Shown here: positions 1 through 18,461 of the stretch, one piece after another
How the letters are laid out: every line of letters starts with the position of its first letter
Position numbering within the stretch: position 1 is the first letter of the stretch
Assembly (NCBI GenBank): GCA_017883205.1
Contig: JADGNZ010000016.1
Coordinates: 1 to 64,000, forward strand
Source: Thermoanaerobaculia bacterium
GTDB taxonomy: Bacteria; Acidobacteriota; Thermoanaerobaculia; Gp7-AA8
Reading direction: 5' to 3'
Length of the DNA: 64,000 nucleotides
The notes under the pieces: generated by a model
Database searches by the model: none
What the model was told of the DNA's origin: nothing
The model's input: the letters and a program-made list of their open reading frames with translations, nothing else
Program-made: the position numbers and the translations under genes

Positions 1-165
1 ACGAAAGACCCTCGAGTCTTTAACGAAAGACCCTCGAGTCTTTAACGAAAGACCCTCGAGTCTTTAACGAAAGACCCTCGAGTCTTTAACGAAAGACCCC
101 CGAGTCTTTAACGAAAGACCCCCGGGTCTTTAACGAAAGACCCCCGAGTCTTTAACGAAAGACTC
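1..165. repeat. Tandem array of a 22-bp palindromic unit
   Basis: Seven complete 22-bp units lie head to tail, starting at 1, 23, 45, 67, 89, 111 and 133, with an eighth that breaks down near 165. Each unit holds AAAGAC and GTCTTT as inverted arms around a six-base core (CCTCGA in the first four, CCCCGA in units five and seven). In unit six the core is CCCCGG, which lengthens the perfect arms to AAAGACCC/GGGTCTTT. Each junction contains TAA and the unit length is not a multiple of three, so the array is not coding. There are no spacers, so it is not a CRISPR array. It begins at the window edge, so its full copy number is unknown. Its role is unknown; tandem hairpins of this sort could act in termination or as protein binding sites. 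Confidence 0.95.
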
Positions 166-436
166 TGATCTCTTGCAAGATGGCGAGTGGCAGATGAACT
201 AACGGCATGTAAGATCAGTAACTTACCAGCCTTGAATGAAGAAACAGACTCCATCGAGCTTGAGTAATTGCGAGGCGGAGTCCGTCAAATGGGAGTTGAG
301 CGCTAGCTACTCAAGCCTGATCGCGACATTCGCTCCTCCGAGGATCGCAACCTTCGAGGCAGGACCAGCGGACGGTTTTGCAACGCTGCCCTTGGGCATT
401 CACAGCCCGACCGGCGTCGCGCGGCCGATTCTGCCC
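166..436. other. Intergenic stretch with no supported gene
   Basis: Between the 22-bp array and the end of the sugar transferase gene there is no reading frame with recognisable protein character. A 73-codon open frame at 236-457 has no family resemblance and runs antisense into the transferase 3' end. No clear terminator hairpin with a T run was seen. Confidence 0.6.
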
Positions 437-1879
437 TTAACTGGCGCCGCGCCCTGAAAGAACCGCCGGAATCGTTCGCAGCAGGATCTTCAGGTCGAGC
501 GATGGCGACCAGTTGTCGATGTACTGCAGATCGAGCTGCATCCAGCGGTCGAAATCGACGTTGTTCCTGCCCGACACCTGCCACAGACACGTCAGTCCCG
601 GCTTCATCGACAACCGGCGGCGGTGCCACCGGTGGTATGCGGCCACTTCCTCGGGGATCGGCGGGCGCGGGCCGACCAGGCTCATGTCGCCTTTGAGCAC
701 GTTCCAGAGCTGCGGCAGCTCGTCGAGCGAGAACTTCCGCAGCACACGGCCGACGGCGGTGATGCGCGGATCGGACTTCGCTTTGAACACCGGCCCGGTC
801 ATCTGATTCAAGTGCGTGACTTCGCCGCGCCGCTCGTGCGCATCCTCGAACATCGTCCGGAACTTGAAGAGCATGAAGAGCCGTCCGTTGAGACCCATCC
901 GCTCCTGCTTGAAAAGGACCGCGCCCGGTGACGAGAGCTTGATGGCCAGGGCGGCGATGGCGATCGCAGGAAGCGACAGCGTGAGAAGAATCATCGAGAC
1001 GGCGATGTCCAGAAGGCGCTTCAGTGCGAGCTGCGTCTCGTTCGAGGGTGTCGTCGTGAAGGTGAGGAACGGAATCCCCTCCAGCTCCTCCAACTCGATA
1101 CGGGCCACCCGGTTGGGGAAGAAGTTCATCGCCACGCGGGCGCGGATGCCGAGCTCTTCGCACATCAGGAAGATCTGCTTCATCTCGTCGAGCTTCTTGC
1201 GCGTGACGGCGAACACGATCTCGTCGATCGGCTCGGCGAACTGGCCGCCCTCGAGCAGCCGGCGCAGATCGGGGACGGTGCCATAGACGCGGAAACGCGC
1301 CCAGCCGTTCGACAGCCGGTGACCATCGGAGACAAAGCCGAGGATCTTGTAGCCCCAGTACTTGTGGCCTTCGACCGTGCGCGCCACTTCGATGGCCCGC
1401 CGGCCCGTGCCGACGATGAGAATCGTCCGGTAGTTGAGACCCTTCGCACGAACGTAGCGGGCGATGATCCGGACCACGATCTTCTCGAGGACCAGCAGCA
1501 GCGCTGCCAGCACGCCGAAGAGGACGAACCACGCACGCGACAACTGGCGGAGTGGAATGAGGTAGGCCAGGGTGGCCAGGATGGCGTTGCCGACGAACAC
1601 CACGCGAATGGCGGTCAGCGCCTCGCGCAGGAGCGGGATCGTGCGGTGGCTGTGATAGCTGTGGTAACTGAAGAGAAGAACCGACCAGAGGATCAAGACG
1701 ACCGGATAGATCTTGATGTAATCGCGAAGGGGGAAAAGGCCGGTGGGAAAGTGTGCCGGAGCCACGCGCGGCAGCACGACATCACGAACGAAGAACGCTG
1801 CAAAAAAAGCAGCCGTCGTGAGGGCCAGGTCGGCAACATAGACGACCCTCGCGATCATGCGCGCTTTCTCTTTAAGCAT
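437..1879 (-). CDS. Polyprenyl glycosylphosphotransferase (initiating sugar transferase)
   Basis: Inner-membrane enzyme expected to move a sugar-1-phosphate from a nucleotide sugar to undecaprenyl phosphate, the first step of a repeat unit. The 480-residue protein has four hydrophobic N-terminal helices (about 10-135), a nucleotide-binding-like middle domain opening with ILIVGTGRRA (153-162), another membrane segment (about 290-313), and the C-terminal bacterial sugar transferase domain with FKFRTM (338-343), DELPQLW, LVGPRP and QVSGRNN. This order and length fit the WcaJ/WbaP-type family; the sugar cannot be read from sequence. The ATG is preceded by AGAGG at good spacing. It is the last gene of the minus-strand run, 94 bp after the upstream glycosyltransferase. 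A second, unrelated initiating enzyme of the WecA type lies at 17363. Confidence 0.95.
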   Translation of the reverse strand: MLKEKARMIARVVYVADLALTTAAFFAAFFVRDVVLPRVAPAHFPTGLFPLRDYIKIYPVVLILWSVLLFSYHSYHSHRTIPLLREALTAIRVVFVGNAILATLAYLIPLRQLSRAWFVLFGVLAALLLVLEKIVVRIIARYVRAKGLNYRTILIVGTGRRAIEVARTVEGHKYWGYKILGFVSDGHRLSNGWARFRVYGTVPDLRRLLEGGQFAEPIDEIVFAVTRKKLDEMKQIFLMCEELGIRARVAMNFFPNRVARIELEELEGIPFLTFTTTPSNETQLALKRLLDIAVSMILLTLSLPAIAIAALAIKLSSPGAVLFKQERMGLNGRLFMLFKFRTMFEDAHERRGEVTHLNQMTGPVFKAKSDPRITAVGRVLRKFSLDELPQLWNVLKGDMSLVGPRPPIPEEVAAYHRWHRRRLSMKPGLTCLWQVSGRNNVDFDRWMQLDLQYIDNWSPSLDLKILLRTIPAVLSGRGAS

Positions 1880-1973
1880 CTAACCTCTTGCCTCGGCGAA
1901 CGACTTCTCGAATGTAACGCACTACGGGCTGACCGGTATACGGAAATCGCGGCGAACGCGTCTACGACAATCT

Positions 1974-3467
1974 TCAGCGGGCGATTTCCGAAAAAAGCCG
2001 CTCGTACGCATCGGTCACAGCCGTCCAGCCATACTTCTCAGCCGCCCGAGCCCGCGCGGCGATTCTCATCTGCGCCCGCCTCGCCGGCGAATCGAGACAC
2101 TCCTGAATTGCCCGGGAAAGCGTCTCGGACGGACGCAGCTTGAAGTAACCGACCGCGTCCCCTCCCACTTCCCGGTTCTCCGGCGTGTCATGCGCCAGCA
2201 CACAGCCCCCCGAAGCCATCGCCTCGATCATCGCCGGATGCGTCCCCCCCACCTCGGTCGCCTGAATGTAGACGAGCGCATGGCGCTGAAGAGTCCGATA
2301 GTCGGCGCCAAACAGAGCCCCCGGAAACAGGATTCGCTCCGATGCGTGGCTGTGCAGCTCGGCTTCGAGGTCACGGGCGTACGAGGCGGAGCCGAGCATG
2401 ATGAGAGGGGGTGGGGAGTGGGGGGTGGGGGGTGGGAGAGAAGCGTCCGAAGACCGACGAGTGCCGGCGTCGAGGATGTTGCCGGAGCGGGCGTTGCCCA
2501 CCAACGGACTGCCTGTCGACTCCTCCCCCACACCCGACTCGCGACTCCCGACTCCCGTCGTCTCTTCTCCCACACCCCACCCCCCACTCCCCACACCCTT
2601 GACAAGCGAGGGTCGCGAGTCGGGAGTCGGGGGTCGTAGCGTTCCGACTCCCGACTCCCGATCCGCGACTCCCGTCGTCTCCTCTCCCACACCCCACCCC
2701 CCACTCCCCACCCCCTCGTACGCCCTCACCACTTCCAGCGGATTGTTCTCCGGCTCGAAGCGGCTCACGTAGAGGATGTAGTTGCCGGACTGGACGCCGA
2801 GCCGGTCGAGGACATCGCTGTCCTCTTCGATCGGAAACTCAGCGCCGTACGGGATCATGACCGGCTCGATGCCGTAACGCCCGCGGTAGTAGTCCGCGAT
2901 GACATCGGCGTCGGCGACGACGCGCGAGGCGAAGAGCGCGGAGAACGATTCGCCGATCGCGTAGACCGCCTTTCCCATCACATTCCACTTGCGCCGGCGA
3001 CGCTCGATTCCGTCGACATTGATCGCCACCGGAATCCGCGCCGCGCGGAGAAGCGGGAGCACGAAGGCATTGGCTGCATTGCAGAGGAGGATCACGTCGA
3101 AATCGCGCCGCAGCGCATCAAGCGCCGAAAGAAAGGTGTGGCTGACGGTCTCGAAGTACTTGTGGCGAAGGGCAGGGAGGACGATGCGTTGGACGCCGTG
3201 CCAGGGGGTGGGGTGTCGGGGGTGGGGGGTGGGAGAGGTTTTGGCTCCACTCTCGCCACGAACTGCCAACTCTCCGGGTGCTGGAGTTGGCCCGGAGCCG
3301 CTCCCACTCCCCACCCCCCACTCCCCACCCCCCGCACGGCAGTACACCGACACCTCGTGCCCGCGCGCGACCAGCCGCGTCGATAGCTCCGCGGCGAACG
3401 TCTCGAAGCCGCCGTAGCGCGGAGGCACACCACGCGTGCCGGCGATGGCGATCTTCAACGAAACCAT
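1974..3467 (-). CDS. GT4-type glycosyltransferase carrying two in-frame heptamer-repeat insertions
   Basis: Retaining glycosyltransferase of the GT-B fold, N-terminal half like DUF1972/rhamnosyltransferase proteins: KIAIAGTRGVPPRYGGFETF near the start, YILYVSRFEPENNP opening the second lobe, and TEVGGTHPAMIEAMASGG as the donor-site loop. The chosen ATG gives 497 residues and overlaps the upstream gene by 13 bp; a longer frame upstream lacks family character. Two segments do not belong to the family. Residues about 45-89 (GGEWGVGSGSGSG to PTPHPRHPTP) lie between two N-lobe strands. Residues about 252-354, with GVGSGGWGVGEETTG present twice and ending PPPTPHSPPP, lie between VVRAYE and LIMLGSASY. 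Both are encoded by heptamer-repeat elements. The core motifs flanking them are intact, so the enzyme may tolerate them as surface loops; activity is uncertain. Confidence 0.9.
   Translation of the reverse strand: MVSLKIAIAGTRGVPPRYGGFETFAAELSTRLVARGHEVSVYCRAGGGEWGVGSGSGSGPTPAPGELAVRGESGAKTSPTPHPRHPTPWHGVQRIVLPALRHKYFETVSHTFLSALDALRRDFDVILLCNAANAFVLPLLRAARIPVAINVDGIERRRRKWNVMGKAVYAIGESFSALFASRVVADADVIADYYRGRYGIEPVMIPYGAEFPIEEDSDVLDRLGVQSGNYILYVSRFEPENNPLEVVRAYEGVGSGGWGVGEETTGVADRESGVGTLRPPTPDSRPSLVKGVGSGGWGVGEETTGVGSRESGVGEESTGSPLVGNARSGNILDAGTRRSSDASLPPPTPHSPPPLIMLGSASYARDLEAELHSHASERILFPGALFGADYRTLQRHALVYIQATEVGGTHPAMIEAMASGGCVLAHDTPENREVGGDAVGYFKLRPSETLSRAIQECLDSPARRAQMRIAARARAAEKYGWTAVTDAYERLFSEIAR
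2406..2715. repeat. Inverted heptamer-repeat element inside the GT4 gene (second lobe)
   Basis: On the plus strand the element opens with G-rich heptads (GGGGTGG, GGGAGTG; 2406-2440) and closes with the complementary C-rich heptads (2682-2715). Inside are further blocks of the GACTCCC and CCCCACT heptamers (about 2519-2599) and of GGGAGTC (2608-2637). A stretch of about 40 bp around TCTCCCACACCCCACC occurs twice in direct order (about 2556-2594 and 2672-2711) with one mismatch, pointing to internal duplication. The element stays open in the coding frame. G runs of four or more at short spacing make a G-quadruplex plausible, and the two ends can pair as a long hairpin. Confidence 0.9.
3204..3333. 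repeat. Inverted heptamer-repeat element inside the GT4 gene (first lobe)
   Basis: A G-rich arm (3204-3238, GGGGGTGGGGTG onward) and a complementary C-rich arm (3300-3333, CTCCCACTCCCCACC onward) flank about 60 bp of sequence that itself holds short inverted repeats (GGCTCC near 3242, GGAGCC near 3295). Same design as the element at 2406-2715. Confidence 0.9.
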
Positions 3468-4540
3468 CCGGCGATCTGGCGGTCGGAGACGCGGCGCCGG
3501 CTCTGAATGGCGCGTCGTTTCTCCATGATCCGGCGCCGATTCTTCCACAGCCACGCAAGCGCTGGAAGCGAGCTGCGCTCGATCGTCAGCGCAGCAATGA
3601 TGACGACGAGATCGCGTCCGATCTCGAACGGCGCATTTCGCAGAGCGAGATAAATCCCTTCGTTCTTCAGCCGCAGCAGAAAGCGGTTCTTGACACCGTG
3701 CATGTTGATGACCGCGGAAAGCGCGCCCCGCTTCTCCGGCGTCACCGTGCGCACGTGATGACCGACGGCATCGGAAACGTAGATCGCGCGCCAGCCAAAG
3801 AGCTGGCCGCGCCAGGCCACGTCCGCATCCTCACGAAAGGCGAAGAAATCCTCATCGAGAAACTCGCCGCCGATTGTGACGTCGCGGATGAACGACATTC
3901 GGTAGAGCGCGGCGGCACCGGAGACGCCGAAGACCTCGATGCGGGAGCCGGGAGTCGGGGGTCGGGGGTCGGAGCGAAAGGCGGCAACCTGCTTTGCTGA
4001 TTCGTGCGCGGCTGCAAGGGGCTCTGCGAACGGCTGTGAGCCGGGGTTGAGTCTCTCCGACTCCCGACTCCCGACCCCCGACCCCCGACCTTGCCCAATA
4101 TCGAAATGCCGCCCAGACCGCGTCATCCGAATGCCCATCGAATCGATCAGACCACTCTCCGCCTGGAGTAGTTTGCCGGTGGCCATGCCAAACGTTTCGC
4201 CGGCAATTTCGAGGGCTGCGACGAGACGATCGATGTACTCCGGTTCGAGAAAGGCGTCGGGATTGAGGAGGAGCACGAATTCGCCGTTGGCGAGGCGCAC
4301 CCCCTGATTGACCGCAGCGCTGAACCCGCGGTTCGTATCGTTGATGATCTGCCGCGCGGACGGCCACGCGTTCCGCCCGATCATGATTGAATCGTCGTCG
4401 GAGGCGTTGTCGATGTGAATCAGCTCGATGCGGTCGTGGGTCTGCTTGCCGAGTGCAGCGAGGCAGCGCTCCAGAAATCGCGCGCTGTTCCAGCTAACGA
4501 TGATGACGGAGACCAATCCGTTCGTCAGACCCCGCTCCAT
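3455..4540 (-). CDS. GT2 family glycosyltransferase with an in-frame repeat insertion
   Basis: Inverting GT-A glycosyltransferase acting at the cytoplasmic face on lipid-linked sugar. The chosen ATG (361 residues) overlaps the preceding gene by 16 bp and puts LVSVIIVSWNSARFL at the N-terminus. Family features are the nucleotide-binding strand, DNASDD, NRGFSAAVNQG, and LLLNPDAFL at about 90-98 as the DXD-like metal site, then EDADVAWRG as the acceptor-side motif. Residues about 151-200 are an insertion that starts GSGVGSRESER and ends DPRPPTPGSR, encoded by a heptamer-repeat element between DIGQG and IEVFGVSG. It sits where relatives have a short linker just before the conserved GVSGAAALYR segment, so the fold may survive. 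An alternative start 126 bp upstream would add low-complexity sequence with no homology. Confidence 0.9.
   Translation of the reverse strand: MERGLTNGLVSVIIVSWNSARFLERCLAALGKQTHDRIELIHIDNASDDDSIMIGRNAWPSARQIINDTNRGFSAAVNQGVRLANGEFVLLLNPDAFLEPEYIDRLVAALEIAGETFGMATGKLLQAESGLIDSMGIRMTRSGRHFDIGQGRGSGVGSRESERLNPGSQPFAEPLAAAHESAKQVAAFRSDPRPPTPGSRIEVFGVSGAAALYRMSFIRDVTIGGEFLDEDFFAFREDADVAWRGQLFGWRAIYVSDAVGHHVRTVTPEKRGALSAVINMHGVKNRFLLRLKNEGIYLALRNAPFEIGRDLVVIIAALTIERSSLPALAWLWKNRRRIMEKRRAIQSRRRVSDRQIAGWFR
3942..4090. repeat. Inverted GGGAGTC heptamer element inside the GT2 gene
   Basis: The plus strand opens with GGGAGCCGGGAGTCGGGGG-type heptads (3942-3973) and closes with the complementary GACTCCC and GACCCCC heptads (4057-4090). 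The roughly 80-bp interior is not repetitive and is unlike the interiors of the other elements. The whole element is read in frame by the glycosyltransferase gene. Confidence 0.9.
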
Positions 4541-5529
4541 CGTGCGAAAGCCTTCCGCATCACGCCGGCGTAGGCGCGCGCGGCGTGCAGGCGCCCGAGG
4601 TGACGGTTGGCGAGGCCGGCGAGTGCGAGAGGGATGCGGAGGAGCATCCCGAAAACGATCGCCCACCGCAGAACTTCGGCCTCACCGGGTGTGTGCCATT
4701 TGCGCGCATAGAGCCACATGTTGCGGTACCAGAGCGCGATGAACTCCGCGAACGGAACGTGCTCGAGACTGGCGCCGCCGAAGTGCCGCGCGCGCGCTGC
4801 GGGGACGACGAAGATCGTTTTGCCGGCTGCGGCAAGACGCCGGCAGTAGTCGACATCTTCGAACCAGGCCGGCGTGAACCGCTCGTCGAGCGGGCCGACC
4901 TCGGTAAAGACTTCGCGCCGCACCAGCAATGCCGCCGCTGCAGGCTGCTCGACCGGCTGCGGATGCGTCAGTTCGAGCTCGCGGTAGCGGTAGCGCGCCG
5001 TCATCGGGTTGTCGGGAAAAAGCTTGTCGATGCCGAACGCTTCGCTGATGAGCGTGGCCAGCGTCGGCAGGCGCCGCAACTGAAACTCGCGCTGCGATTC
5101 GCCCGCTTCATCGGAAAGAAGAGGGGCGGCAGCGGCAATAGCCGGATTCTCGTCCAGAAACTCCACCAGGATCTCGAGCGTGCGTGGCGAGAGCTCGCAG
5201 TCGGGATTGAGCAGGAACAGATAGCGCCCGCTGGTGCGGCTGGCCACGCGATTGACGCCGGCCGCAAAGCCGTCGTTGACCGCGCCGCGAATCACTTCGA
5301 CGTCCTTGCCCATCGCCGCCAGCGTGGCATCGGACGAGGCGTTGTCATAGACGACGACCTCATACTCGAGGCGTCCGCAGGCGGCCTGGAGCGACTGCAG
5401 GCAGCGCTCGATCCAACGTTCGCTGTTCCACGTCACGATGGCGATCGAGAGATCGAGCGGACCGGTGGCAATGCCCCGCAACATCGGCGCTGGCTGGTCG
5501 CTGCTCAGTTGTCTCGTTGCCTTTGCCAT
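4525..5529 (-). CDS. GT2 family glycosyltransferase
   Basis: Rhamnosyltransferase-like GT2 protein of 334 residues from the ATG at 5529, which has GAGG upstream and overlaps the previous gene by 25 bp; a downstream ATG at 5484 is a possible start. The GT-A domain begins with LSIAIVTWNSERWIERCL and carries YDNASSD, NDGFAAGVNR and FLLNPDCEL (DXD-like). After the sugar-binding segment come AAALLVRREVF and DERFTPAWFEDVDYCRR, both typical of this family, then a basic, partly hydrophobic C-terminal tail likely to touch the membrane. No repeat insertion is present, in contrast to the neighbours on both sides. The acceptor and donor cannot be inferred. Confidence 0.93.
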   Translation of the reverse strand: MAKATRQLSSDQPAPMLRGIATGPLDLSIAIVTWNSERWIERCLQSLQAACGRLEYEVVVYDNASSDATLAAMGKDVEVIRGAVNDGFAAGVNRVASRTSGRYLFLLNPDCELSPRTLEILVEFLDENPAIAAAAPLLSDEAGESQREFQLRRLPTLATLISEAFGIDKLFPDNPMTARYRYRELELTHPQPVEQPAAAALLVRREVFTEVGPLDERFTPAWFEDVDYCRRLAAAGKTIFVVPAARARHFGGASLEHVPFAEFIALWYRNMWLYARKWHTPGEAEVLRWAIVFGMLLRIPLALAGLANRHLGRLHAARAYAGVMRKAFARWSGV

Positions 5530-6611
5530 TGCTTGACTGCCTCGATCAGCGGCCTTGTCACCGCAGCCCACCCGAAGCGAGGCTGGATCCGGATCAGGTT
5601 AGATACGCACCGCGCGTAGAAAGCGTCGTCCGTCATCAATTTCGCGATCGCGTCGGCAACGGCCGGCGCGTCCGATGGTGGCACAACGATACCCAACTCT
5701 TCCGCCGCCACCAGCTCAGCAGCAAACCCTTCCTCAGTTGTGATGACCGGAACCGCCGCCGCAATCGCATCGAACAACCTCGTTCGAATCGAGTACGCAG
5801 CCTCCGCTGTCGGACGATGAAGCATGATAGCGACTTTGCTGCGGCGCAGCCACGAAAGGCGGCTGTTGTACGGCATCCACGAGTCGTTGGCTTCGACGAA
5901 CGCTCCGCCGGCGGTGATCCACTCGTCGAGACGGTCTTCGCGCCTCCGGTCGACGGTGTGCTGATTCGGACGTGCACGGCCCAGGAACAGAAGGCGGCAG
6001 TCGATGCCGCGGCGATTGACCGCGATGATCGCCTCGACCGCAGTCGCCGGATCGAGCCACTCCCAGATCCCGCCACCCCACAAAACGATGTTCTCGCGCT
6101 CCTGTGGTGCCGGTGCACCAAAGTCTTCGACGCCGAATGGGACCTCGATGATGGGGCATTGCGCGCCGCGATAGAGCTCACGCTGTTTCTTCGTAGCGAC
6201 GACGAGCAGGTCGCCGGTGGCGACCGCTCTCCGGACACGCCAGCGCTCCGCCTCGATGTGAATCCTCTGCCGCATCGAAGGATGACGGCCGTACATCTCG
6301 TTGAGCTCGAGAAGCACGGGATCAAAGAGATCGTAAACGATCCGCTGTCCGCGACGCTGCCGCCGGAAGCCGCGCGCAGGCTGTCCGATCAGCACATCGG
6401 CCTCGCGTATTCGCGCGTTTGCTTCGACGACTCGGCGAGCAGCAACGCTGAAACTCGCCGGCGCAGGAAGCTCCCCTTCGCGCTTGCAGATTAGCGTGAC
6501 CGTGAAGTGCTTCGCCAATTCGCCGGCCAGATGCCACGCGCGAATCCCGGGGCCGGCCATCCGTTCGCCAACGACATCCGGCGTGTGCACGACGATGTTC
6601 ACGCGGCGCAC
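5505..6611 (-). CDS. GT4-like glycosyltransferase
   Basis: GT-B fold glycosyltransferase of 368 residues. The N-lobe begins VNIVVHTPDVVGERMAGPGI, with GPGIRAWHLAGEL as the usual glycine-rich acceptor loop. The C-lobe starts after VPFGVEDF and ENIVLWGGGIWEW, and the donor-site region reads AYSIRTRLFDAIAAAVPVI then TTEEGFAAEL, a variant of the E-x7-E motif seen in GT4 enzymes. A recognisable C-terminal helix follows. It overlaps the next gene by 25 bp. The gene upstream is separated from it by a 54-bp stretch made of AAGGATG heptamers, so its translation may be less tightly coupled than elsewhere in the run. Confidence 0.88.
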   Translation of the reverse strand: MRRVNIVVHTPDVVGERMAGPGIRAWHLAGELAKHFTVTLICKREGELPAPASFSVAARRVVEANARIREADVLIGQPARGFRRQRRGQRIVYDLFDPVLLELNEMYGRHPSMRQRIHIEAERWRVRRAVATGDLLVVATKKQRELYRGAQCPIIEVPFGVEDFGAPAPQERENIVLWGGGIWEWLDPATAVEAIIAVNRRGIDCRLLFLGRARPNQHTVDRRREDRLDEWITAGGAFVEANDSWMPYNSRLSWLRRSKVAIMLHRPTAEAAYSIRTRLFDAIAAAVPVITTEEGFAAELVAAEELGIVVPPSDAPAVADAIAKLMTDDAFYARCVSNLIRIQPRFGWAAVTRPLIEAVKQWQRQRDN

Positions 6612-6617
6612 TCTATC

Positions 6618-6688
6618 GAAGGATGAAGTCAGAAGGATGAAGGATGAGTTGAAAGCACTCTTCGTTCATCCTTCATCCTTCATCCTTC
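6618..6688. repeat. Inverted AAGGATG heptamer repeat
   Basis: GAAGGATGA-type heptads on the left (6618-6648) face TTCATCC heptads on the right (6664-6688) across about 17 bp, forming an inverted repeat. This is a different heptamer from the G-rich ones in the neighbouring genes. Read leftward it contains TGA, which supplies the stop codon of the GT2 gene at 6666, so that protein ends in repeat-encoded residues (RRMKDEG). Confidence 0.9.
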
Positions 6689-7613
6689 GTATCAGCCCCT
6701 CAACGATTCCTCGCAGCGACGAGCGTCCCGTCATTAGTAACTTCGCGTCTTCCCACAGAAGCGCGCTGATGCGGCCGACGCCCCGATGGCGGCGTGCTAC
6801 GAAATATCGGTTGCGTGTTCGAAGACGGCGCGCGTCGCCGCCAAGGAGAGGCGCCGATTGCGAACCGCGATGAGTCGCCTTGATGACCGGCAGAACTTCG
6901 GTGCGCCAGCCAGCTTCGTGCAGACGAGCGCAGAGCTCGACGTCTTCGTAGTAGGCAAAGAACTGCTCGTCGAAGATTGTGTGGCCGAGGGCTTCGCGGC
7001 GGTAGAGCGCAGCGGTTGCGGAGACGCCCCATGCGGGGGTCGGGGGTCGGGGGTCGGGGGTCGCAACGAGCGACCTTGTCATGACTCCGACGCCCGACTC
7101 ACGACTCACGACTCCCGCAGCATGGTCGGGTGTCGGAACGAGCGACCTTGTCATGACTCCGACACCCGACTCCCGGCTCCCGACTCCCGCAGCATGGCCT
7201 ATCTGTCGAAACGTCCCGTCGCTGATGTCGATTCCGGCGCCGTCGATCGTGGTCTCGTCGCGGCGGAGGATCGTCTGCACTGCGGCAAGTTTCGGATCGG
7301 CGTCGAGCGCGGCAGCGACTGTGGCGAGCCAGTCGCGATCGAGAACGACGTCGTTGTTGACGAGCGCGATGTAGTTGCCGGTTGCGTGACGGAAGGCTTC
7401 ATTGTTGCCGCCCGCGAAGCCGAGGTTGGTCTCGCTTCGGAAGACGTGAAGGCCGTGCCGGAAGGCGATGCGCTCCGCGGCTGGCGTGCGCGAGCCGTTG
7501 TCGAGAACGATCACTTCCTTCGGCGGAAGGGTCTGCGAAGCAATCGAATCAAGACAGGCGCGGAGCATGTCGCCGCCGTCGATATCGAGAACGATCACGG
7601 AGACGTCAGTCAT
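6666..7613 (-). CDS. GT2 family glycosyltransferase with a duplicated 24-residue insertion
   Basis: GT2 enzyme of 315 residues, ATG at 7613 overlapping the upstream membrane protein gene by 8 bp. Family motifs are VSVIVLDIDGGDMLRACLDS at the N-terminus, LDNGSRT, NLGFAGGNNEAF, LVNNDVV (86-89, DXD-like) and FFAYYEDVELCARLHEAGW. Residues about 140-194 are foreign to the family: two tandem 24-residue copies of a unit beginning HAAGVGSRESGVGVMTRSL, then DPRPPTPA. They interrupt the protein between DGTFRQIG and WGVSATAALYRR, the same position as the insertion in the GT2 at 3455. The C-terminal residues RRMKDEG derive from the AAGGATG repeat, so the native end may have been lost or replaced. An upstream ATG adds 27 residues without family character. 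Confidence 0.9.
   Translation of the reverse strand: MTDVSVIVLDIDGGDMLRACLDSIASQTLPPKEVIVLDNGSRTPAAERIAFRHGLHVFRSETNLGFAGGNNEAFRHATGNYIALVNNDVVLDRDWLATVAAALDADPKLAAVQTILRRDETTIDGAGIDISDGTFRQIGHAAGVGSRESGVGVMTRSLVPTPDHAAGVVSRESGVGVMTRSLVATPDPRPPTPAWGVSATAALYRREALGHTIFDEQFFAYYEDVELCARLHEAGWRTEVLPVIKATHRGSQSAPLLGGDARRLRTRNRYFVARRHRGVGRISALLWEDAKLLMTGRSSLRGIVEGLIRRMKDEG
7034..7197. repeat. Heptamer element with a 72-bp tandem duplication inside the GT2 gene
   Basis: GGGGGTC heptads at 7034-7063 are followed by two near-identical 61-bp segments (7065-7125 and 7137-7197), each opening AACGAGCGACCTTGTCATGA and ending in GACTCCC-type heptads plus GCAGCATGG. The period of 72 bp is exactly 24 codons, so the duplication kept the reading frame. 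Confidence 0.93.
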
Positions 7614-9633
7614 GCTGCATCCAGTCGAGATTGGCGCTTCCGTCCAGGCAGCGCAACTGCGCGCGTCCGCCCGAGCCGGCGTTGATGCCCGCATCGATCA
7701 TGGTGTAGCCGTAAATCGCACCACTCGGCGGCAGGACGAACGCGTGCCCGCCGATCTCGATCGTGGCCCCGCTGCGCGACTGATAGCGGAGCGTGGAAGG
7801 TCCGGGTTTGGCCAGGAACGAGAGCGTGTCTCCAGCATGAACGACCCAGCCTCCCTGATAGAGAAAACGCGAAACGGTCCACTCGGAAGGGAACAGCTCG
7901 CCGCCGGAATGGATCACGTGCGCATCCTCGAATTCGACGCGGTCAGCGGGTCGACGTCCGTACGTGAATGCCGCGAGAAGCAGCGCGGCGAAGAGGAGCG
8001 GTGCGATCCCCATCATCGCGCGCCGAGCGGAGCGGGAGTGGGGGGTGGGGAGTGGGGAGTGGGGAGCCGCGGATGAGTGGTGGAGAATGCGACGCAGATT
8101 CGATCCGCCCGGAAACATCCACACCCCACTCCCCACACCCCACCCCCTTGATCCAGCAATACCAAGCATGCCGAGCACGACGATCAGTAAGACGCTCCCA
8201 ACAGTTGCCGCGAGGTTCGGGCGGATGAAGCTCGGCATGAGGCGCGAGAAATCGCTGTGCCACCGTTCGCTCAGCGCCTCACCGACGAAGTTCTCGCCGG
8301 TGGCGAGGTGAAACAGCCGCCAGGGAAACGCCGCGCCGTGGGCGACGAGCATCAGCGTCCAGCCGGCAATGAGAGCCCGCATCCCCGCGCCCACCCTCTC
8401 CCACAATGCTGCGCTTCCGAGTGCGAGGACGGGCATCAGGACGACGATGTAGCGAAGTGGCGGAGACCAGCCGCCGTGCCATTCCGAGCGCGGCACGAGA
8501 TAAAGAATGTAGAGAAGCGATGCGCTGATGCCCAGACGGAAACCTTCCGGCATCTCACGCCATCGCGCAAGGGCCACGATCGCCAGTACGTACAGCGGCG
8601 CCTGAAAAAGAAGACCGCCTGCGCCGTCTAGCACGAGGCCGAAGAGACCGCGCCAATACGACATCGGTCCGCCCGGAATGAGCTCCTGCCACGAATGCGT
8701 GTTCATCGGATTGCCTGTGATCAGCCAGGCCACCACCAGCGGCACAGCGACGACTGCCCCGGCGATGACGAGTTGCTTGCGCGTCCGCAAGGCGCGCGCG
8801 AGCAACACAATCGCAATCAGGCCGAATCGGATCTTGAGCAGCACGAGCGCGAAGATCGCCGTGATCCATCGAGCGGGACGCCGTTGCCGCACGCCGCGCA
8901 ACGCCTCGAGGAAGCAGAACGCCGCCGGCACTTCCGGCCAGATGCGCGTCGCATAAAACACAATCGGCGGCCCGAAGGCGATCAGCGGGAAGAGCGCGCG
9001 CGTTGTCGCGTCCTCGATTCCTTCGTCTTCGAGAAAGCGAACCGTCGATCGCGCAAGAAGGGCTCCGAACAACGCAATCACGGCGAGCGCGCCAGGCACA
9101 CCTCCGAGCGCGTAGCCGGGCATCATCAGGATCGGGAGGAAGGGCTCGTGACGCGAGTACTGCTCGCCATGAGCTCCCCTCGGGTCACCCGGCTGCGGAG
9201 CGAGATCGGGACGGCCGATGTCGGAGTGCGCGATCTCCCGATATTGATTGGTGAGATCGAGATCGTGATCGCGCACCAGCGACTCGGACATCATCAGGTA
9301 ATAAGGCTCATCGCCATCGATCGGCGTCCGCAGTTGAAGCGGGATCATCACCGCGTAACCGATCGCAGCGATGAGGAAGGCGCGGTTCGCGCTCCAGCGC
9401 ACTTCATCGGCAAACGCAAGGAAAGCGAGAGGAATGGCGAGGATGCCCACGCCGATCGTCACCAGCGCGAGATACGGGTCAATGTCGACATGCAGCACGC
9501 GCCCGTAGGCCCACAGAATGGCAAAGGCGATCGCCGCCCCGAGCTGCGTGCTCAGACAGCGCCAGAGCGCGCGGGCGCGCAATGCCAGGAGCGGCATTGC
9601 GAGAGCAGCGACGATGAAAAGCGCCAGTTTCAT
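7606..9633 (-). CDS. Multi-pass membrane glycosyltransferase-like protein (GT39/GT-C type)
   Basis: Predicted inner-membrane protein of 675 residues with about eleven to thirteen transmembrane helices. A motif GDEPYY (about 107-112) sits in the first large external loop; acidic DE residues there are the hallmark of PMT/ArnT-like enzymes, which take sugars from polyprenyl-phosphate donors on the periplasmic side. The start at 9633 forms an ATGA overlap with the stop of the upstream gene. Residues about 495-538 (RGWGVGSGVW to PHSPLPTPHS) are encoded by a heptamer element and lie between two late helices, ahead of AMMGIAPLLFAALLLAAFTY. A C-terminal domain of about 115 residues, probably periplasmic, follows. 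Donor and acceptor are unknown. Confidence 0.85.
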   Translation of the reverse strand: MKLALFIVAALAMPLLALRARALWRCLSTQLGAAIAFAILWAYGRVLHVDIDPYLALVTIGVGILAIPLAFLAFADEVRWSANRAFLIAAIGYAVMIPLQLRTPIDGDEPYYLMMSESLVRDHDLDLTNQYREIAHSDIGRPDLAPQPGDPRGAHGEQYSRHEPFLPILMMPGYALGGVPGALAVIALFGALLARSTVRFLEDEGIEDATTRALFPLIAFGPPIVFYATRIWPEVPAAFCFLEALRGVRQRRPARWITAIFALVLLKIRFGLIAIVLLARALRTRKQLVIAGAVVAVPLVVAWLITGNPMNTHSWQELIPGGPMSYWRGLFGLVLDGAGGLLFQAPLYVLAIVALARWREMPEGFRLGISASLLYILYLVPRSEWHGGWSPPLRYIVVLMPVLALGSAALWERVGAGMRALIAGWTLMLVAHGAAFPWRLFHLATGENFVGEALSERWHSDFSRLMPSFIRPNLAATVGSVLLIVVLGMLGIAGSRGWGVGSGVWMFPGGSNLRRILHHSSAAPHSPLPTPHSRSARRAMMGIAPLLFAALLLAAFTYGRRPADRVEFEDAHVIHSGGELFPSEWTVSRFLYQGGWVVHAGDTLSFLAKPGPSTLRYQSRSGATIEIGGHAFVLPPSGAIYGYTMIDAGINAGSGGRAQLRCLDGSANLDWMQHD
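8034..8148. repeat. Inverted heptamer element inside the membrane glycosyltransferase gene
   Basis: A G-rich arm of GGGGAGT and GGGGGGT heptads (8034-8067) faces CCCCACT and CCCCACA heptads (8120-8148) across about 52 bp. The G arm has five G runs of four or more separated by one to three bases, a strong G-quadruplex pattern. Confidence 0.92.
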
Positions 9634-10871
9634 CGTTTTGGATACTCGACGGAGTCGACCGCCAGCCGCGATTGCGCATGAAGATCGCCAGCGGCAACGA
9701 CGCGGAGGGAGACGATATCGGACGCGCAACTCACCGTCGTGCGGCCCGCGCCGACGACCCAGGTGTTCGCGCCGTAGCCGCGGATCTCGCCCGGCGAGAA
9801 TCGCGGCAGCGGATTGCGCGAAGCGAAAAACTGCTCGCGGCGCATGAATCCGAAGTCGGCCGTGTCGCCGATGCGGATCGGGCGCACGGTCACGCGACCG
9901 CGCTGATCCTTCGCTTCGATCGCGCCGACCACGTGTCCCGATCGAAGGCGCTCGAAGTACCCGCCATACGTCGTCACCGTCGCCTCGGAAACGTGAGGCG
10001 GTAACGCGATCGGCAGCGACTCGCCGGCCGCCAATGCGCGGGAGACTGGCTGCGCCTCCCCCACCAGCGGCGTGTAGTTGCGAGCGATCGGCAACGCCCG
10101 GGCGATGATGCCGCTCCAGGGCCAGAGCGCGAATACAGCCACAGCCGTCGCGTGCGATAGCGGCCGTATGCGATCTATCAGAGGAACGAGGAAGACCATC
10201 GCCGAGGCTACATAGACCGTCGCCAGCGAGTAGCGCGCAAAGCAGGCGCCGAGGAGCAGGATGACGGCGATGGCGAGGCTCGCGATGTTGCGGGAGCTTG
10301 TGCTCGTCGATATCCCGAGACTTCGCAACCCAACCACGAGCAACGCGAGTGCAAACGGCAGAAACGTCATCATCCCCGCCCGCACCGGCGTCGCCACAGC
10401 GACGGCCAGCACGGCGATGAGGAACGCCGGCGTCCCGCCGGCTGGCCCGGCGGCGTCTCGCCGCCGCCGCATAGCGAAGAGCAGCGCCAGGCTTCCCGCC
10501 AGCACGACGAGCTCGCGAACGATGCGCACGTCGTGCAACGGAATCCAGCGGAGCAGCACGATTCCGACGACGGTCAGCGCGATCTCCGGCGGCGAGACGC
10601 CGCCGAGCCAGCCGGCGGGACGCCAGCGCTCCTCCACGTTCGCAGTGCTCGCGTACACCGCCATCGCCGCGGCCCCGTACGCCAGCGCCACGATCACGCC
10701 ATACGCAAGCAGCCGCCCGCGCTCATCGGCCAGCGTCATCATCGCCACGATCAGGAGGGGCACCGCGCATTGCACTGCGGCTGCCCAGCGCGTCCCGCGC
10801 ACGGTCCACGCGCAGATCAGGACCAGCGCGATTACGAGCGGAAGATGGACGTCGATGGGTGTCGTCAGCAC
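9630..10871 (-). CDS. Multi-pass membrane protein of unknown function
   Basis: Hydrophobic protein of about 413 residues with eight to ten predicted helices and a soluble C-terminal part of roughly 130 residues rich in beta-type sequence. It has no motif that names a family; position and layout suggest a partner or relative of the membrane glycosyltransferase downstream, with which it overlaps by ATGA. The GTG at 10871 overlaps the dapF stop codon by 7 bp and is preferred; an ATG at 10901 would deepen the overlap. Two copies of a 40-bp sequence in opposite orientation (10426-10465 and 10588-10627) are read in frame and give RRRDAAGPAGGTPAFL and WRPAGWLGGVSPPE, both of which look like repeat-derived loops between helices. 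Confidence 0.75.
   Translation of the reverse strand: MLTTPIDVHLPLVIALVLICAWTVRGTRWAAAVQCAVPLLIVAMMTLADERGRLLAYGVIVALAYGAAAMAVYASTANVEERWRPAGWLGGVSPPEIALTVVGIVLLRWIPLHDVRIVRELVVLAGSLALLFAMRRRRDAAGPAGGTPAFLIAVLAVAVATPVRAGMMTFLPFALALLVVGLRSLGISTSTSSRNIASLAIAVILLLGACFARYSLATVYVASAMVFLVPLIDRIRPLSHATAVAVFALWPWSGIIARALPIARNYTPLVGEAQPVSRALAAGESLPIALPPHVSEATVTTYGGYFERLRSGHVVGAIEAKDQRGRVTVRPIRIGDTADFGFMRREQFFASRNPLPRFSPGEIRGYGANTWVVGAGRTTVSCASDIVSLRVVAAGDLHAQSRLAVDSVEYPKR
10426..10465 (+). repeat. 40-bp GC-rich repeat, copy 1
   Basis: Copy 1 of a 40-bp element containing GGCGTCCCGCCGGCTGGC and CGGCGGCGTCTCGCCGCC. It matches copy 2, which is inverted at 10588-10627, at 38 of 40 positions. Both lie inside the membrane protein gene. 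The composition and in-frame reading as an AGGTPA-like peptide resemble dispersed REP-like elements. Confidence 0.92.
10588..10627 (-). repeat. 40-bp GC-rich repeat, copy 2 (inverted)
   Basis: Reverse complement of the element at 10426-10465 with two C/T differences. The pair is separated by 122 bp and could form a large cruciform or an mRNA hairpin. Confidence 0.92.
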
Positions 10872-11728
10872 ACCACGTTCTCGGCTGGATTGCGGACCCA
10901 CTCCGGATCGAAGCCCTCGATCGTATCCGGCGTCATCGAGGCGCGGTAAACGACGCGTGCGTCGCCGCGGAGCTGGACGTCACGAACGTCGCTGCCGTCG
11001 AGGGCGAACGAAACCTCGAGCGTGATTCCGCTTCGGGTCAGCACCTTCACGGGTGACTTCGTCTTCCCGAAGAGCGCGCTCGTCACCGCCGAGGCAACGA
11101 CGCCCGATCCGCAGGAAAGAGTCTCCGCTTCCACGCCGCGCTCGTAGGTGCGCACTTCGATCGCTCCCGGCTCGCGGACGACGACGAAGTTGATGTTGGC
11201 GCCGGCAGGCTGCAGGCCCGGGTGCGTACGAAGGGCGCGGCCGAGGGGGACAATGTCCTGGGACCAGAGGTTGTCGCGCAGGAAGACGACATAGTGCGGC
11301 ACGCCGACGACGATCGAACTACCGCGGATCACGGTCTCGCCGACGCGCAAAGGGCGATCCGCTTGAAACGAGTGTGGCTGCGGCAGGGTTAGCGTCACGA
11401 GTCCGCCATCGCTGACTTCGGCGGCGACGACGCCTGCGCCCGTCTCGATGGTCATCTTCTTCGGCGCAATCACGTTCACGAGAGCAAAACGCGCCGCGCA
11501 ACGGGTACCGTTCGCGCAGAAGTCTGCCGGCGAGCCATCGGCGTTGAGGTAGCGCATACGGAACGTCGCCTTCCCCGTGTTCTCGATGAGGATGACACCG
11601 TCCGCCCCGACCGAAAGGTGGGGAGTACAGATGCGCCTGGTGAGCGCGGCGGCATCGCCGATGCGGCCCGACCGGTTGTCGATGACCACAAAGTCGTTTC
11701 CCCCGCCCGCCATCTTCGAGAACGTCAT
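10865..11728 (-). CDS. dapF: Diaminopimelate epimerase
   Basis: Interconverts LL- and meso-diaminopimelate in the lysine and peptidoglycan pathway, in the cytoplasm, using two cysteines without cofactor. From the ATG at 11728 (AGGA upstream) the protein has 287 residues, the usual family length. The first catalytic cysteine is Cys71 in DFCANGTRC and the second is Cys206 in ETLSCGSGVVA. The N-terminal FSKMAGGGNDFVVIDNR and the SVGADGVILIE segment are also diagnostic. The first cysteine motif reads CANG where most relatives have CGNG. It is the first gene of the minus-strand run and its stop overlaps the next gene, so a housekeeping gene appears to lead a glycosyltransferase operon. Confidence 0.96.
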   Translation of the reverse strand: MTFSKMAGGGNDFVVIDNRSGRIGDAAALTRRICTPHLSVGADGVILIENTGKATFRMRYLNADGSPADFCANGTRCAARFALVNVIAPKKMTIETGAGVVAAEVSDGGLVTLTLPQPHSFQADRPLRVGETVIRGSSIVVGVPHYVVFLRDNLWSQDIVPLGRALRTHPGLQPAGANINFVVVREPGAIEVRTYERGVEAETLSCGSGVVASAVTSALFGKTKSPVKVLTRSGITLEVSFALDGSDVRDVQLRGDARVVYRASMTPDTIEGFDPEWVRNPAENVVC

Positions 11729-11948
11729 CGGATCCTGTTTCGACGCTTGCAGTTGCATGGGTTGCGCATGAACGGCGGACGCGAGCGTGCCGCCGGAAGT
11801 TTTTGTGCCGGGCGTGGGTTCCGACCGGCGGCTCATTCTCGCATGTAACGGCGCGCTCCCTTGATTCGTCTAACTTGGGGACGCACCGGCGCCGGAAGCC
11901 GCCGTCCCATCGGCAATGACCGACATCTCGTTCAATCGGAGCATATTC
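11729..11948. promoter_or_regulatory. Divergent intergenic region between dapF and the VWA gene
   Basis: About 220 bp separate two divergently read genes, so promoters for both should lie here. I cannot point to convincing -35/-10 pairs. GGAG seven bases before the GTG at 11949 is the likely ribosome site of the VWA gene. Confidence 0.4.
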
Positions 11949-13649
11949 GTGAAACGACTTCGCTTCATTCGCGTCACATCGGCCATCCTCATCGCAGCGC
12001 TCACCACCGGACCTCTGGCAGCCCAGCAGAAAACGCCACAGCCGGCTGAAGTCCCGAAGCTGGTCGAGAACATCGACGTCCACGTCATCGGCGTCGATGT
12101 CGTCGTCACGGACAAGAAGGGCAACCCGGTCACCGGCCTGACGAAGGACGACTTCCGGATCTTCGAGAACAACGAGGAGAAGCAAATCTCGAACTTCTAC
12201 GAGATCGACGGAAGAGTGGCCAAACCTCCAGTCACTGCCGGGGCCGCGCCCACGCCGGTACCCGCACCGGCCGCAGCGCCGAAGGCAGAGATCAGCGAGC
12301 AGTTGAAGCGCCGCATCATTTTCTACATCGACAACCTCTCCCTCGCTCCCTTCAACCGCAACCGCGTCTTCAAGCAGATGAAGGACTTCGTCAAGGACGT
12401 CATGCGGCCGGGCGACGAGGCCATGCTGGCGACATACAACCGAAGCCTCAAAGTGCGCGTGCCCTTCACACGCGACCCCATCCAGATCCAGCAGATGCTC
12501 GACTCCATCGCCGGTGAGTCGGGATTTGGAATTGCGAACAAGAGCGAAGCCAAAGACGTGATGGGGCGCATCCGGGACGCCACGAATTACGACGATGCGC
12601 TGGCCGATGCGCGTACCTACGCGTCGTCCGTCGACCACGATCTGCGGCAGAGCGTGGAGTCGATCAACGGTCTCCTCACGACACTCGCCGGCGTGGAAGG
12701 AAAGAAGATTCTCGTCCTGACAACCGAGGGCTTCCAGATTCAGCCGGGGCGCGAAGTCTTCGCGATGATCGATGACGTGGCGAAGGACAAAGGGTGGCAG
12801 TCCAGCTCGACGCTCGAGGCGATGAGCTACAACGGCGCGCCACTGATCGAGTCGATCGCCAAAACGGCCAACGCCAACGGCATCACGATCTACGCAATTC
12901 ACGCAGGCGGCCTCGCCGCGGGGAGCGAAGGGACGTCGGCTGACAACCAGCAGGCGATCTCATACAACGTCACTTCCGCGGCCGTCTCGAATACCACCGA
13001 ATCGCTCCAGCTCATGGCCGAGCTGACCGGCGGCCTGGCCACCACGCGCACGAACAACTTCGCCGGCGCGTTCAAGAACATCGGGCGCGATCTCGACTCG
13101 TATTACTCCCTCGGGTACCGCGCCGGAACGGAGCGTGTCGACCGGCAGCGCACCCTCGAAGTGCGTGTCAATAACAGAGCACTCAAGGTCCGTAACCGGC
13201 AGACCTTCGTCGAGAAATCAACGTTCCAGGACATGAGCGACCGCGTCATCGCGAACCTGCTTTACAAGACCAAGTCGAACGATCTGAATGTCCGCGTCAA
13301 GGTCAATGCGCCGATTCCGGCTGACGATCTCTTCAAGATCCCTGTCGAGATTCAGATCCCGGTCGACAACCTCACGCTACTGCAGCAGGGTGAAGCCTAC
13401 ATGGGCGGCTTCTCGATCTACGTCGTCGTCGGGAACAAAGACGGCGACATGTCGGACGTCTCGCGCAAGTCACACCAGATCACGATTCCGCTGGCCGACT
13501 TTCCGAAGAGCAAGGGGCGGTACTACACATACACCCTCGATCTGATGTGCGAGCGCGGCTTGAACAAGATCTCCATCGGCGTGGTCGACGACGTCTCGAA
13601 CGTCAGCGGCTTCGACCGGCAACAGGTGATCGCGCAGGACCTCCGGTAA
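11949..13649 (+). CDS. Secreted VWFA-related protein of the acidobacterial type
   Basis: Exported protein of about 566 residues. The preferred GTG has GGAG seven bases upstream and yields a clean signal peptide (VKRLRFIRVTSAILIAALTT, cleavage near LAAQQ); an ATG at 11916 lacks a ribosome site. After the signal comes a beta-rich segment, VDVVVTDKKGNPVTGLTKDDF, that precedes VWA domains in a family largely confined to Acidobacteriota, then a VWA-like domain: IIFYIDNLSLAPFNR in place of the classic DxSxS, VMRPGDEAMLATY, and KKILVLTTEGF. A YYSLGYR segment and a C-terminal beta domain follow. Function in this family is unknown. It is the best taxonomic marker in the window. A proline/alanine-rich linker lies near residues 95-115. 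Confidence 0.9.
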   Translation: MKRLRFIRVTSAILIAALTTGPLAAQQKTPQPAEVPKLVENIDVHVIGVDVVVTDKKGNPVTGLTKDDFRIFENNEEKQISNFYEIDGRVAKPPVTAGAAPTPVPAPAAAPKAEISEQLKRRIIFYIDNLSLAPFNRNRVFKQMKDFVKDVMRPGDEAMLATYNRSLKVRVPFTRDPIQIQQMLDSIAGESGFGIANKSEAKDVMGRIRDATNYDDALADARTYASSVDHDLRQSVESINGLLTTLAGVEGKKILVLTTEGFQIQPGREVFAMIDDVAKDKGWQSSSTLEAMSYNGAPLIESIAKTANANGITIYAIHAGGLAAGSEGTSADNQQAISYNVTSAAVSNTTESLQLMAELTGGLATTRTNNFAGAFKNIGRDLDSYYSLGYRAGTERVDRQRTLEVRVNNRALKVRNRQTFVEKSTFQDMSDRVIANLLYKTKSNDLNVRVKVNAPIPADDLFKIPVEIQIPVDNLTLLQQGEAYMGGFSIYVVVGNKDGDMSDVSRKSHQITIPLADFPKSKGRYYTYTLDLMCERGLNKISIGVVDDVSNVSGFDRQQVIAQDLR

Positions 13650-13710
13650 GCTTTTTCCACATAAGGTAGAGGTTTGCACCGCTTCGCGATTTCCGAGGTA
13701 GCCTCGGAGT

Positions 13711-13926
13711 GTGAGGATTGCATCGACGCCGAAATCTCAGCTCGTGGCCGATAGAGTAGCGGAAGGCCTTCGCGAAGCAGCACTGCTCTGGTTCGTATTC
13801 TCAGCACTCGATGCGCTAGTCAGTAGCCGCCTGACGGCGCCATGGCTGGCGGCGAATTCGATCGGATCGATTGTGGTTTGGTTTGCAGGCATGTACGTTG
13901 AACTCGTGGTGAAGGAGCTCGCATGA
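13711..13926 (+). CDS. Small membrane protein of unknown function
   Basis: Open frame of 71 codons from GTG with two hydrophobic segments (ALLWFVFSALDALV and a second near the C-terminus, NSIGSIVVWFAGMYVELVV). No family recognised. Support for it being real comes from the ATGA overlap with the next small gene, which has its own AAGGAG site inside this gene's last codons. It lies 61 bp after the VWA gene on the same strand. The ribosome site for its own GTG is poor: GGAG is too close, and GAGG lies a little far upstream. Confidence 0.55.
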   Translation: MRIASTPKSQLVADRVAEGLREAALLWFVFSALDALVSSRLTAPWLAANSIGSIVVWFAGMYVELVVKELA

Positions 13927-14108
13927 ATCTGACCATGCTCGTCGCAGACATTAACCCGATGTACTACGGAACTTTAGCGTTCCTGATCTTCTCCGGCATG
14001 CTCGCCAGTATCGGATTCTGGGCTCTTCATAACTTGAAGAAACAGAAGAAGCGGCAGATCGGGTTCTCTACCGTGGCACCGGAATCTCGCTCACAATCCG
14101 CTGAATGA
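13923..14108 (+). CDS. Small single-pass membrane protein, duplicate A
   Basis: Protein of 61 residues with MLVADINPMYYGTLAFLIFS, one transmembrane helix, then a basic stretch NLKKQKKRQ and the tail APESRSQSAE. It is a close paralogue of the next gene: INPMYYGT, AFL, FS, W-A, H, KK-K and the tail APESRS-SAE are shared. AAGGAG six bases before the ATG is a good ribosome site. Function unknown; the charge pattern suggests the C-terminus is cytoplasmic. The last codons lie in a duplicated segment that, on the other strand, matches the 3' end of the MoxR gene. Confidence 0.7.
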   Translation: MNLTMLVADINPMYYGTLAFLIFSGMLASIGFWALHNLKKQKKRQIGFSTVAPESRSQSAE

Positions 14109-17058: not shown

Positions 17059-17362
17059 GCGTTTGCTCCTTCAGAAAAGTCGCGGCATTCTATACGTGGG
17101 GGGTGGAGTGTTGGGGGTGGGGTGTGGGAGTAAAGCTGATCGTCGCTCGCTTTGCATTACCTGGAGGTTGAGATTCGGGCGTCGCTGAGAAGCAATCGCC
17201 ACCGGCACTCGACTCCGCTCGACGCACCACCATCAATCGGCGCGTTCTTTCAACATCCGATACCCGCTATCGACACGCACACACGTGATCCATCCCACAC
17301 CGATCTCCCACACCCCACTCCCCACTTCCCACCCCCCACTGCTATTCTTCTCATCCACTCCC
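17059..17362. other. Divergent intergenic region containing a heptamer element
   Basis: The 304 bp between ETF-QO (minus) and the WecA-like gene (plus) should contain promoters for both. They are mostly occupied by an inverted heptamer element (17097-17340) with about 175 bp of non-repetitive interior that encodes nothing recognisable. No convincing promoter hexamers were seen. Confidence 0.7.
17097..17340. repeat. Intergenic inverted heptamer-repeat element
   Basis: A G-rich arm (17097-17130: GGGGGTGGAGTG, GGGGGTGGGGTGTGGGAG) and a complementary C-rich arm (17305-17340: CTCCCACACCCCACTCCCC) flank about 175 bp. It has the same arm sequences and orientation as the intragenic elements at 2406, 3204 and 8034 but lies between genes, showing that the element is not a feature of one protein family. 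Confidence 0.9.
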
Positions 17363-18457: not shown

Positions 18458-18461
18458 CGCT

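Follow-up and report, generated by a model that had tools for sequence, protein, structure and literature searches.

Repeats of seven-nucleotide units have long been noted in unrelated bacteria and have been attributed to slippage or to G-quadruplexes, with no agreement on their cause. The G-rich heptamer repeats described by Rehm et al. (2015), with the unit GGGAATC in Xanthomonas and GGGGATT in Nostoc, show a preference for four units, which was linked to G-quadruplexes, and form convergent pairs in Xanthomonas (PMC4692102). Direct repeats of the heptamer TAACTGA occur in Beggiatoaceae, Cyanobacteria and Bacteroidetes (PMC4679880). REPINs are inverted doublets of REP sequences that go with RAYT (PMC3116915), and the Rickettsia palindromic elements of about 150 bp contain a conserved peptide (review PMC10969869). 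Here we analyze short inverted elements with arms of heptamer arrays in a stretch of 64,000 nucleotides (the window; GCA_017883205.1, contig JADGNZ010000016.1, positions 1 to 64,000) from a bacterium of the class Thermoanaerobaculia, phylum Acidobacteriota, in which several of these elements are inserted in frame in genes of a glycosyltransferase cluster. With a probability of about 0.5, they are dispersing hairpins of a kind similar to REPINs or Rickettsia palindromic elements, in which the arms are conserved and the interiors are not, and the differences between related species come from rewriting or replacement of existing copies.

A sequence-only reading of the window had pointed to five elements between 2406 and 8148 that begin with G-rich heptamers and end with C-rich or GACTCCC heptamers. 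All five are present at these positions (Table 1), and they exceed chance expectation, as is evident from the excess of period 7 and from a reversed control. The window contains 17 period-7 arrays and 0-1 arrays at any other period from 3 to 12, and the corresponding figures are 64 and at most 6 in 400 kb, and 138 and at most 11 in 864 kb of the host genome (G000 in the following; the window is part of its contig C20). A genome-wide search with the pattern GGGGAGTGGGGAGTGGGG, allowing one mismatch, yielded 122+111 matches, compared with 0+1 for the reversed control. The five features are thereby shown to belong to a class of short inverted elements that is spread over the whole genome. Their placement was surveyed in stretches covering about 1.05 Mb of the 6.37 Mb draft genome, and overlap with genes was scored after gene calling with the elements masked; unmasked calling had overlooked insert-bearing genes. 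This gave 106 element clusters, or one per 9.9 kb, which scales to an estimated total of about 640. Of these clusters, 71 are intergenic, 19 extend across a gene end and 16 were called internal, several of the latter being mis-called gene starts as judged by eye, in DNA of which about 81% was called coding. Clear in-gene copies outside the window are found in genes for an aminotransferase, an aldehyde ferredoxin oxidoreductase, TilS and a methyltransferase, and some elements are in spacers of what we take, from reading the sequence, to be a ribosomal-protein operon, e.g. between map and infA. Many unit families coexist in the genome, including GGGGNGT, CGGGNGT, GAAGGAT, AGAGATC, CGGTTGT, AATTGAC and GGCAGAA. 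An Rfam search of window positions 1-20000 gave zero matches. A predicted protein at another locus (L075, ~7749-8423; G000:C5:107749-108423) has a stretch resembling a signal peptide, FILHPSFFILVFTLLFISCA, part of which seems to be encoded by a GAAGGAT array.

The layout of the elements is the same in the distinct families: a purine-rich arm comes first in 5' position, on whichever strand the element is read, and is followed by a short interior that is unrelated between elements and then by the inverted arm. Among neighboring arrays of the same family on opposite strands, the purine-rich arm came first in 26 of 26 cases in the G000 sample and in 9 of 9 in G002, a metagenome-assembled genome (MAG) of the same genus; at a lower score threshold the count was 46 versus 3. 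Where an array has a partner on one side only, the polarity was likewise kept in 53 of 55 cases, and on viral contigs forward and reversed arrangements were counted 10 versus 0 and 2 versus 0. An inverted partner within 200 bp was present for 56 of 70 strong arrays, compared with 6 of 70 random places. The arms begin with AAGGAT or (C)GGG and are heptad arrays without a short REP palindrome. Their length is preferentially 30-31 bp (84 of 191 arms for GAAGGAT from various phyla, 62 of 152 for CGGGNGT and 30 of 89 for GGGGNGT), i.e. four heptads plus 2-3 nucleotides, and the four-heptad mode as well as phase-locked outer and inner ends are common to these three families, although counts of length and phase are not independent where elements have a common ancestry. 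As the pattern used to select GAAGGAT elements forces part of their phases, cleaner phase evidence comes from CGGGNGT and GGGGNGT. Judged by sequence, G-tracts that could form quadruplexes are present in GGGGNGT and CGGGNGT, but not in GAAGGAT, AGAGATC, AATTGAC and GGCAGAA, all of which have the same layout. Since GAAGGAT shows the four-unit preference without such tracts, G-quadruplex formation alone cannot account for it. Within the GGGGNGT and CGGGNGT units, position five is almost equally often A, G or T and almost never C, and the remaining positions are nearly fixed. Adenine-directed mutagenesis was considered for this free position, which is the sole A in GGGGAGT and CGGGAGT, and was rejected, as the A positions of GAAGGAT behave differently and no suitable enzyme was found. 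Heptad arms are in a few places about 0.8-1 kb apart, around minisatellite-like or gene-like DNA (G000 C2 159926-160862, C3 41831-42701, C11 45338-46387).

Could such elements have arisen in situ as simple-sequence repeats? A seed would then grow by polymerase slippage in 7-bp steps, and the arms would be kept complementary by template switching across the hairpin. Among the long simple repeats of bacteria, heptads are reported to be the most frequent, with slippage as proposed cause (PMC4692102, PMC4679880), and duplications are visible inside some elements of the window: 2406-2715 has two GGGGNGT right arms (2569-2598 and 2686-2715) that result from an internal duplication of about 115 bp, and 7034-7197 includes a 72-bp tandem duplication. 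A collinear comparison of about 33 kb with G002, and at most sites also with G001 of the same genus (all three genomes are drafts), has aspects of both kinds. At C2:4795 and 11767, G000 alone has an insertion, and the sites are exactly empty in both congeners; the two arms at C2:4795 are each homogeneous but unlike one another, as slippage could generate them. At sites 11338 and 13200, the CGGGNGT family is retained in all three species. Site 3966 has GGGGAGT in G000, a CGGGAGC-like unit in G002 and a CGGCTGT-like unit in G001, and at site 12208, GAAGGAT stands opposite CGGTTGT. At site C2:3440, AGCTCTT corresponds to a CGGCTGT-like unit, both arms appear to have changed jointly, and the interior looks partly retained, which suits an in-situ process as well. 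However, such a process would have to account for a sharp 30-31 bp peak combined with locked outer and inner phases in three unit families, for a fixed polarity, for a single unit that has more than 200 matches throughout one species, and for the common GAAGGAT unit in several phyla, often with GAAGGCG in second place from the outer end. Slippage alone is unfit as explanation because length, phases and polarity are fixed and empty sites are exact, and we regard the in-situ scenario in its full form as unlikely.

The dispersing-hairpin reading draws on the locked phases, the length peak, the polarity, the excess of partners, the empty sites, the bursts of amplification, the identical viral copies, the replacement of loops and the purifying selection on host genes, from which we infer dispersal. 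As the arm is the common conserved unit, we favor dispersal by an enzyme acting in trans, with the arms as its substrate or product. Such an enzyme would insert or copy arms at defined ends without duplicating the target, and the interior would be passenger or filler DNA. Existing copies may subsequently be rewritten or replaced, and this would be the reason why different heptads are found at the same place in congeners. Copies that land in a gene would survive only when they keep the reading frame, contain no stop and hit a loop that tolerates them, and glycosyltransferase loops may well qualify.

Several observations weigh against this reading. The small families AGAGATC and GGCAGAA have no clear 31-bp peak, and target-site duplications of 2-7 bp are not in excess over shuffled flanks. 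The joint change of both arms at C2:3440 with a partly shared interior is not explained by plain transposition. When 38 masked interiors from this genus were compared, only one true match was obtained, which belongs to the CGGTTGT family, whereas transposition of whole elements predicts shared interiors; apart from other dispersed repeats, no interiors were found to be copies of one another or of other loci. Finally, none of the 8 Y1_Tnp (RAYT-like) genes that were viewed with short flanks, out of 15 in G000, is adjoined by heptad arrays, and among 11 widely spaced arm pairs in the part-read genome, of which six were read, no transposase of an autonomous parent element was recognized.

The same results bear on ordinary non-autonomous transposons such as miniature inverted-repeat transposable elements or REPINs, which would be moved as whole units by RAYT or another transposase. 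Inverted ends, defined boundaries, bursts and empty sites are what such elements would leave behind, the 15 Y1_Tnp genes would offer a source of activity, and a viral contig contains identical copies. Yet whole-element transposition alone is unfit because the masked interiors share essentially nothing, and with the lack of target duplications, of arrays beside the Y1_Tnp genes viewed and of a parent among the arm pairs read, we consider this explanation improbable. Arms might instead be synthesized at DNA breaks by an enzyme that adds about 31 nucleotides of templated heptads to both 3' ends, which are then joined over filler DNA. This would yield the fixed polarity, the phases and the arm length, unrelated interiors without target duplication, species-specific units and the re-use of sites. 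However, no candidate enzyme was found, and identical whole copies are present in one viral contig, so that synthesis at breaks appears distinctly unlikely. The single RVT_1 reverse transcriptase gene found in G000 (L250, G000:C42:88934-89548) is within a 599-codon open frame that presumably encodes a fusion of reverse transcriptase and Cas1, the Cas1 part being judged by eye. As this gene adjoins a CRISPR-like array without heptads, reverse transcriptase was rejected as arm writer.

The amplification of individual families is patchy and occurs in bursts that are limited to a species or genus. Among 396 genomes of the phylum, GGGGNGT has 255 matches in G000, 2 in G002 and no more than 2 in any of the others, and is amplified in this species only. 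CGGGNGT is amplified in this genus, with 185, 196 and 288 matches in the three congeners, 18 in the relative G010 and zero in every other relative searched. GAAGGAT occurs in 16 of the 396 genomes, with 139 matches in one of them, and the exact GAAGGAT pair pattern was found in at least 115 stretches from at least 8 phyla, most of these records being MAGs. They come from Acidobacteriota, Chloroflexota, Planctomycetota, Hydrogenedentes, Betaproteobacteria, Verrucomicrobia, Sumerlaeota and Armatimonadetes. In several phyla, the variant GAAGGCG is often the second unit from the outer end of the GAAGGAT arms. The viral contig IMGVR_UViG_3300039109_000141 (L258, positions 7031 and 8630) carries two GAAGGAT elements that are identical including the loop and an off-register unit, in differing flanks. 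An assembly or binning artefact might be suspected, given the draft state of the compared genomes and the naming of G002 as a MAG, but the elements occupy orthologous places in three separate drafts, the host genes are in frame, and records from other phyla contain them as well, including that of Oscillochloris sp. ZM17-4, which carries GAAGGAT pairs and is not marked as MAG. The chance of an artefact is practically negligible. It is possible, and we propose it tentatively, that the elements form a cross-phylum class of hairpins for which an enzyme recognizes or writes 31-bp arms in steps of 7 bp. If a change of unit leaves the length of the arms, the phases of their ends and the polarity untouched, the G-rich repeats of Xanthomonas and Nostoc would share this process, and quadruplex formation would be a side effect.

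Table 1. Heptad elements of the window and the genes that contain them.
Feature	Position	Strand	Remarks
Compound element, GT4-type gene loop 2	2406..2715	.	GGGGNGT arm 2407-2436, then unique interior
GGGGNGT pair, GT4-type gene loop 1	3204..3333	.	arms 3204-3233, 3303-3333
CGGGNGT pair, GT2 gene	3942..4090	.	arms 3942-3972, 4057-4090; interior 84 bp
GAAGGAT pair, GT2 gene 3' end	6618..6691	.	overlooked in the sequence-only reading
CGGGNGT element, GT2 gene	7034..7197	.	arms 7034-7063, 7087-7114, 7159-7189
GGGGNGT pair, membrane-protein gene	8034..8148	.	arms 8034-8066, 8119-8147
GGGGNGT pair, 5' end of Glycos_transf_4 gene	~17099..17340	.	overlooked in the sequence-only reading
GT4-type glycosyltransferase gene, two inserts	1974..3472	-	Pfam Glyco_trans_4_4 + Glycos_transf_1
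GT2 glycosyltransferase gene, one insert (3942-4090)	3455..4541	-	Pfam Glycos_transf_2
GT2 glycosyltransferase gene, 7034-7197 insert	6666..7613	-	Pfam Glycos_transf_2
Large membrane-protein gene, 8034-8148 insert	7606..9636	-	kept in orthologous clusters; without Pfam match

While the positions of the five window elements stood, their description needed revision, as 2406-2715 is compound and 7034-7197 contains the duplication mentioned above, and two pairs had been missed. In the compound element, nested CGGGNGT arrays (2535-2557, 2612-2636 and 2644-2661) are located between the GGGGNGT arrays. The right arm of the GAAGGAT pair at 6618-6691 supplies the final codons and the stop of the GT2 gene (..RRMKDEG*), and an alignment places the conserved start of this gene at residue 28 of the listed open reading frame. 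The assignment of the hosts to a GT4-type and two GT2 genes is supported by Pfam, but the name "membrane glycosyltransferase" for the fourth is not. At its very beginning (1-163), the window contains a 22-bp tandem repeat, ACGAAAGACCCTCGAGTCTTTA, with 7.4 copies of a nearly palindromic unit.

All four host reading frames stay open across the inserts, and alignments of orthologous clusters from 11 relatives agree with the earlier claim that the inserts sit in loops that separate conserved blocks. The loops are short and the inserts absent in most other genera, where GT4 loop 2 consists of few residues. Compared with these genera, the extra residues are 43 (GT2, 7034-7197), 39 (GT2, 3942-4090), 36 and 96 (GT4) and 41 (membrane protein). 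Relatives often have other elements at the same places. The 7034-7197 loop holds one CCGACAG arm in G001 and an unrelated perfect CTGGGAGCGCGGGCG palindrome in G002, and at the 3942-4090 site, a short CGGGNGT pair is present in G001, a single arm in G002 and a GCAGACC pair in G010. GT4 loop 1 has CGGGNGT pairs with unrelated interiors in both congeners, GT4 loop 2 has a CGGGNGT pair in G001 and a GGCGAAC-type array in G015, and the membrane-protein loop (8034-8148) of G001 has a GTCATCCTGAGC..GCTCAGGATGACA palindrome. Further in-frame palindromic elements of the same glycosyltransferase cluster (L030 ~5570-5820, L029 ~4660-4990, L034 ~3910-4210) are of the CTGGGAGCGCGGGCG.. and GTCATCC(T/C)GAGC.. 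types.

That genes can survive such insertions, as had been suggested, is borne out by their evolution and by structure prediction. Outside the inserts, the ratio of nonsynonymous to synonymous substitutions (dN/dS) relative to the congeners is 0.09-0.19 for the host genes and 0.13-0.17 for insert-free neighbors, and the host genes, to judge from these ratios, remain under purifying selection. The AlphaFold model of the 6666-7613 GT2 enzyme has a mean predicted local distance difference test score (pLDDT) of 77.7, models three to five being near 50, and places the insert as a loop with pLDDT 26-29 between two strands of a well-predicted fold. The insert in this GT2 enzyme is predicted to be disordered, and it is supported that inserts are tolerated in loops.

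The idea that the heptamers are adapted to coding by being stop-free found no support, as stop-bearing families exist too and the in-gene excess of stop-free units is not significant (p = 0.52, rough counts). The heptad units are not unusual in this respect, because about half of all 7-mers are stop-free on both strands. According to the sequence-only reading, the inserts would be retained since they vary the loops of surface-glycan enzymes. The glycosyltransferase cluster is indeed unusually rich, with five elements within about 6 kb, and the loops differ in both congeners. However, elements are mostly intergenic, in-gene copies are found in housekeeping genes as well, the insert is predicted to be disordered, and dN/dS relative to the congeners does not hint at positive selection outside the inserts. 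No evidence of selection on loop diversity was found. A special tie to surface-glycan enzymes is therefore not supported, and an adaptive role in loop variation is very improbable.

A fixed arm of 30-31 bp, with fixed end phases and polarity across units and several phyla, points to a specific and testable process. From the in-frame copies it can be seen how functional enzymes acquire disordered loops through such elements, and annotators should be aware that inserts can be marked by peptides such as GEWGVGS, DSRLPTP and HPSSFIL. The recurrence of the layout with other words across phyla suggests an unrecognized kind of dispersing element and not a device for cell-surface variation, with the proviso that open-licence literature was searched and earlier descriptions, notably cyanobacterial ones, may be missed.

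How do the elements compare with the described systems? REPINs and Rickettsia palindromic elements may serve as working analogues, rather than as families to which membership would be claimed. Like REPINs, the elements are short inverted doublets with variable spacers, dispersed and mostly extragenic, but their arms are heptad arrays and not palindromic REP 16-mers, and the RAYT-like genes viewed have no adjoining arrays. With the Rickettsia palindromic elements they have in common that palindromic inserts are tolerated in frame within unrelated genes, whereas heptad arms, unique interiors without a conserved element sequence or peptide, and the occurrence in another phylum set them apart. The TAACTGA repeats also have a 7-bp unit, a patchy distribution across phyla and a suspected horizontal spread, but are almost all direct and mostly located upstream of start codons, and do not form inverted pairs. 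Most similar features are found in the repeats of Rehm et al., which likewise consist of 7-bp tandem units in many dispersed, mostly intergenic copies, with a preference for four units and with convergent inverted pairs. In contrast to these, many unit families with a 30-31 bp arm, some of them without quadruplex G-tracts, coexist in the genome described here, units differ between congeners at one and the same site, and in-frame copies are documented.

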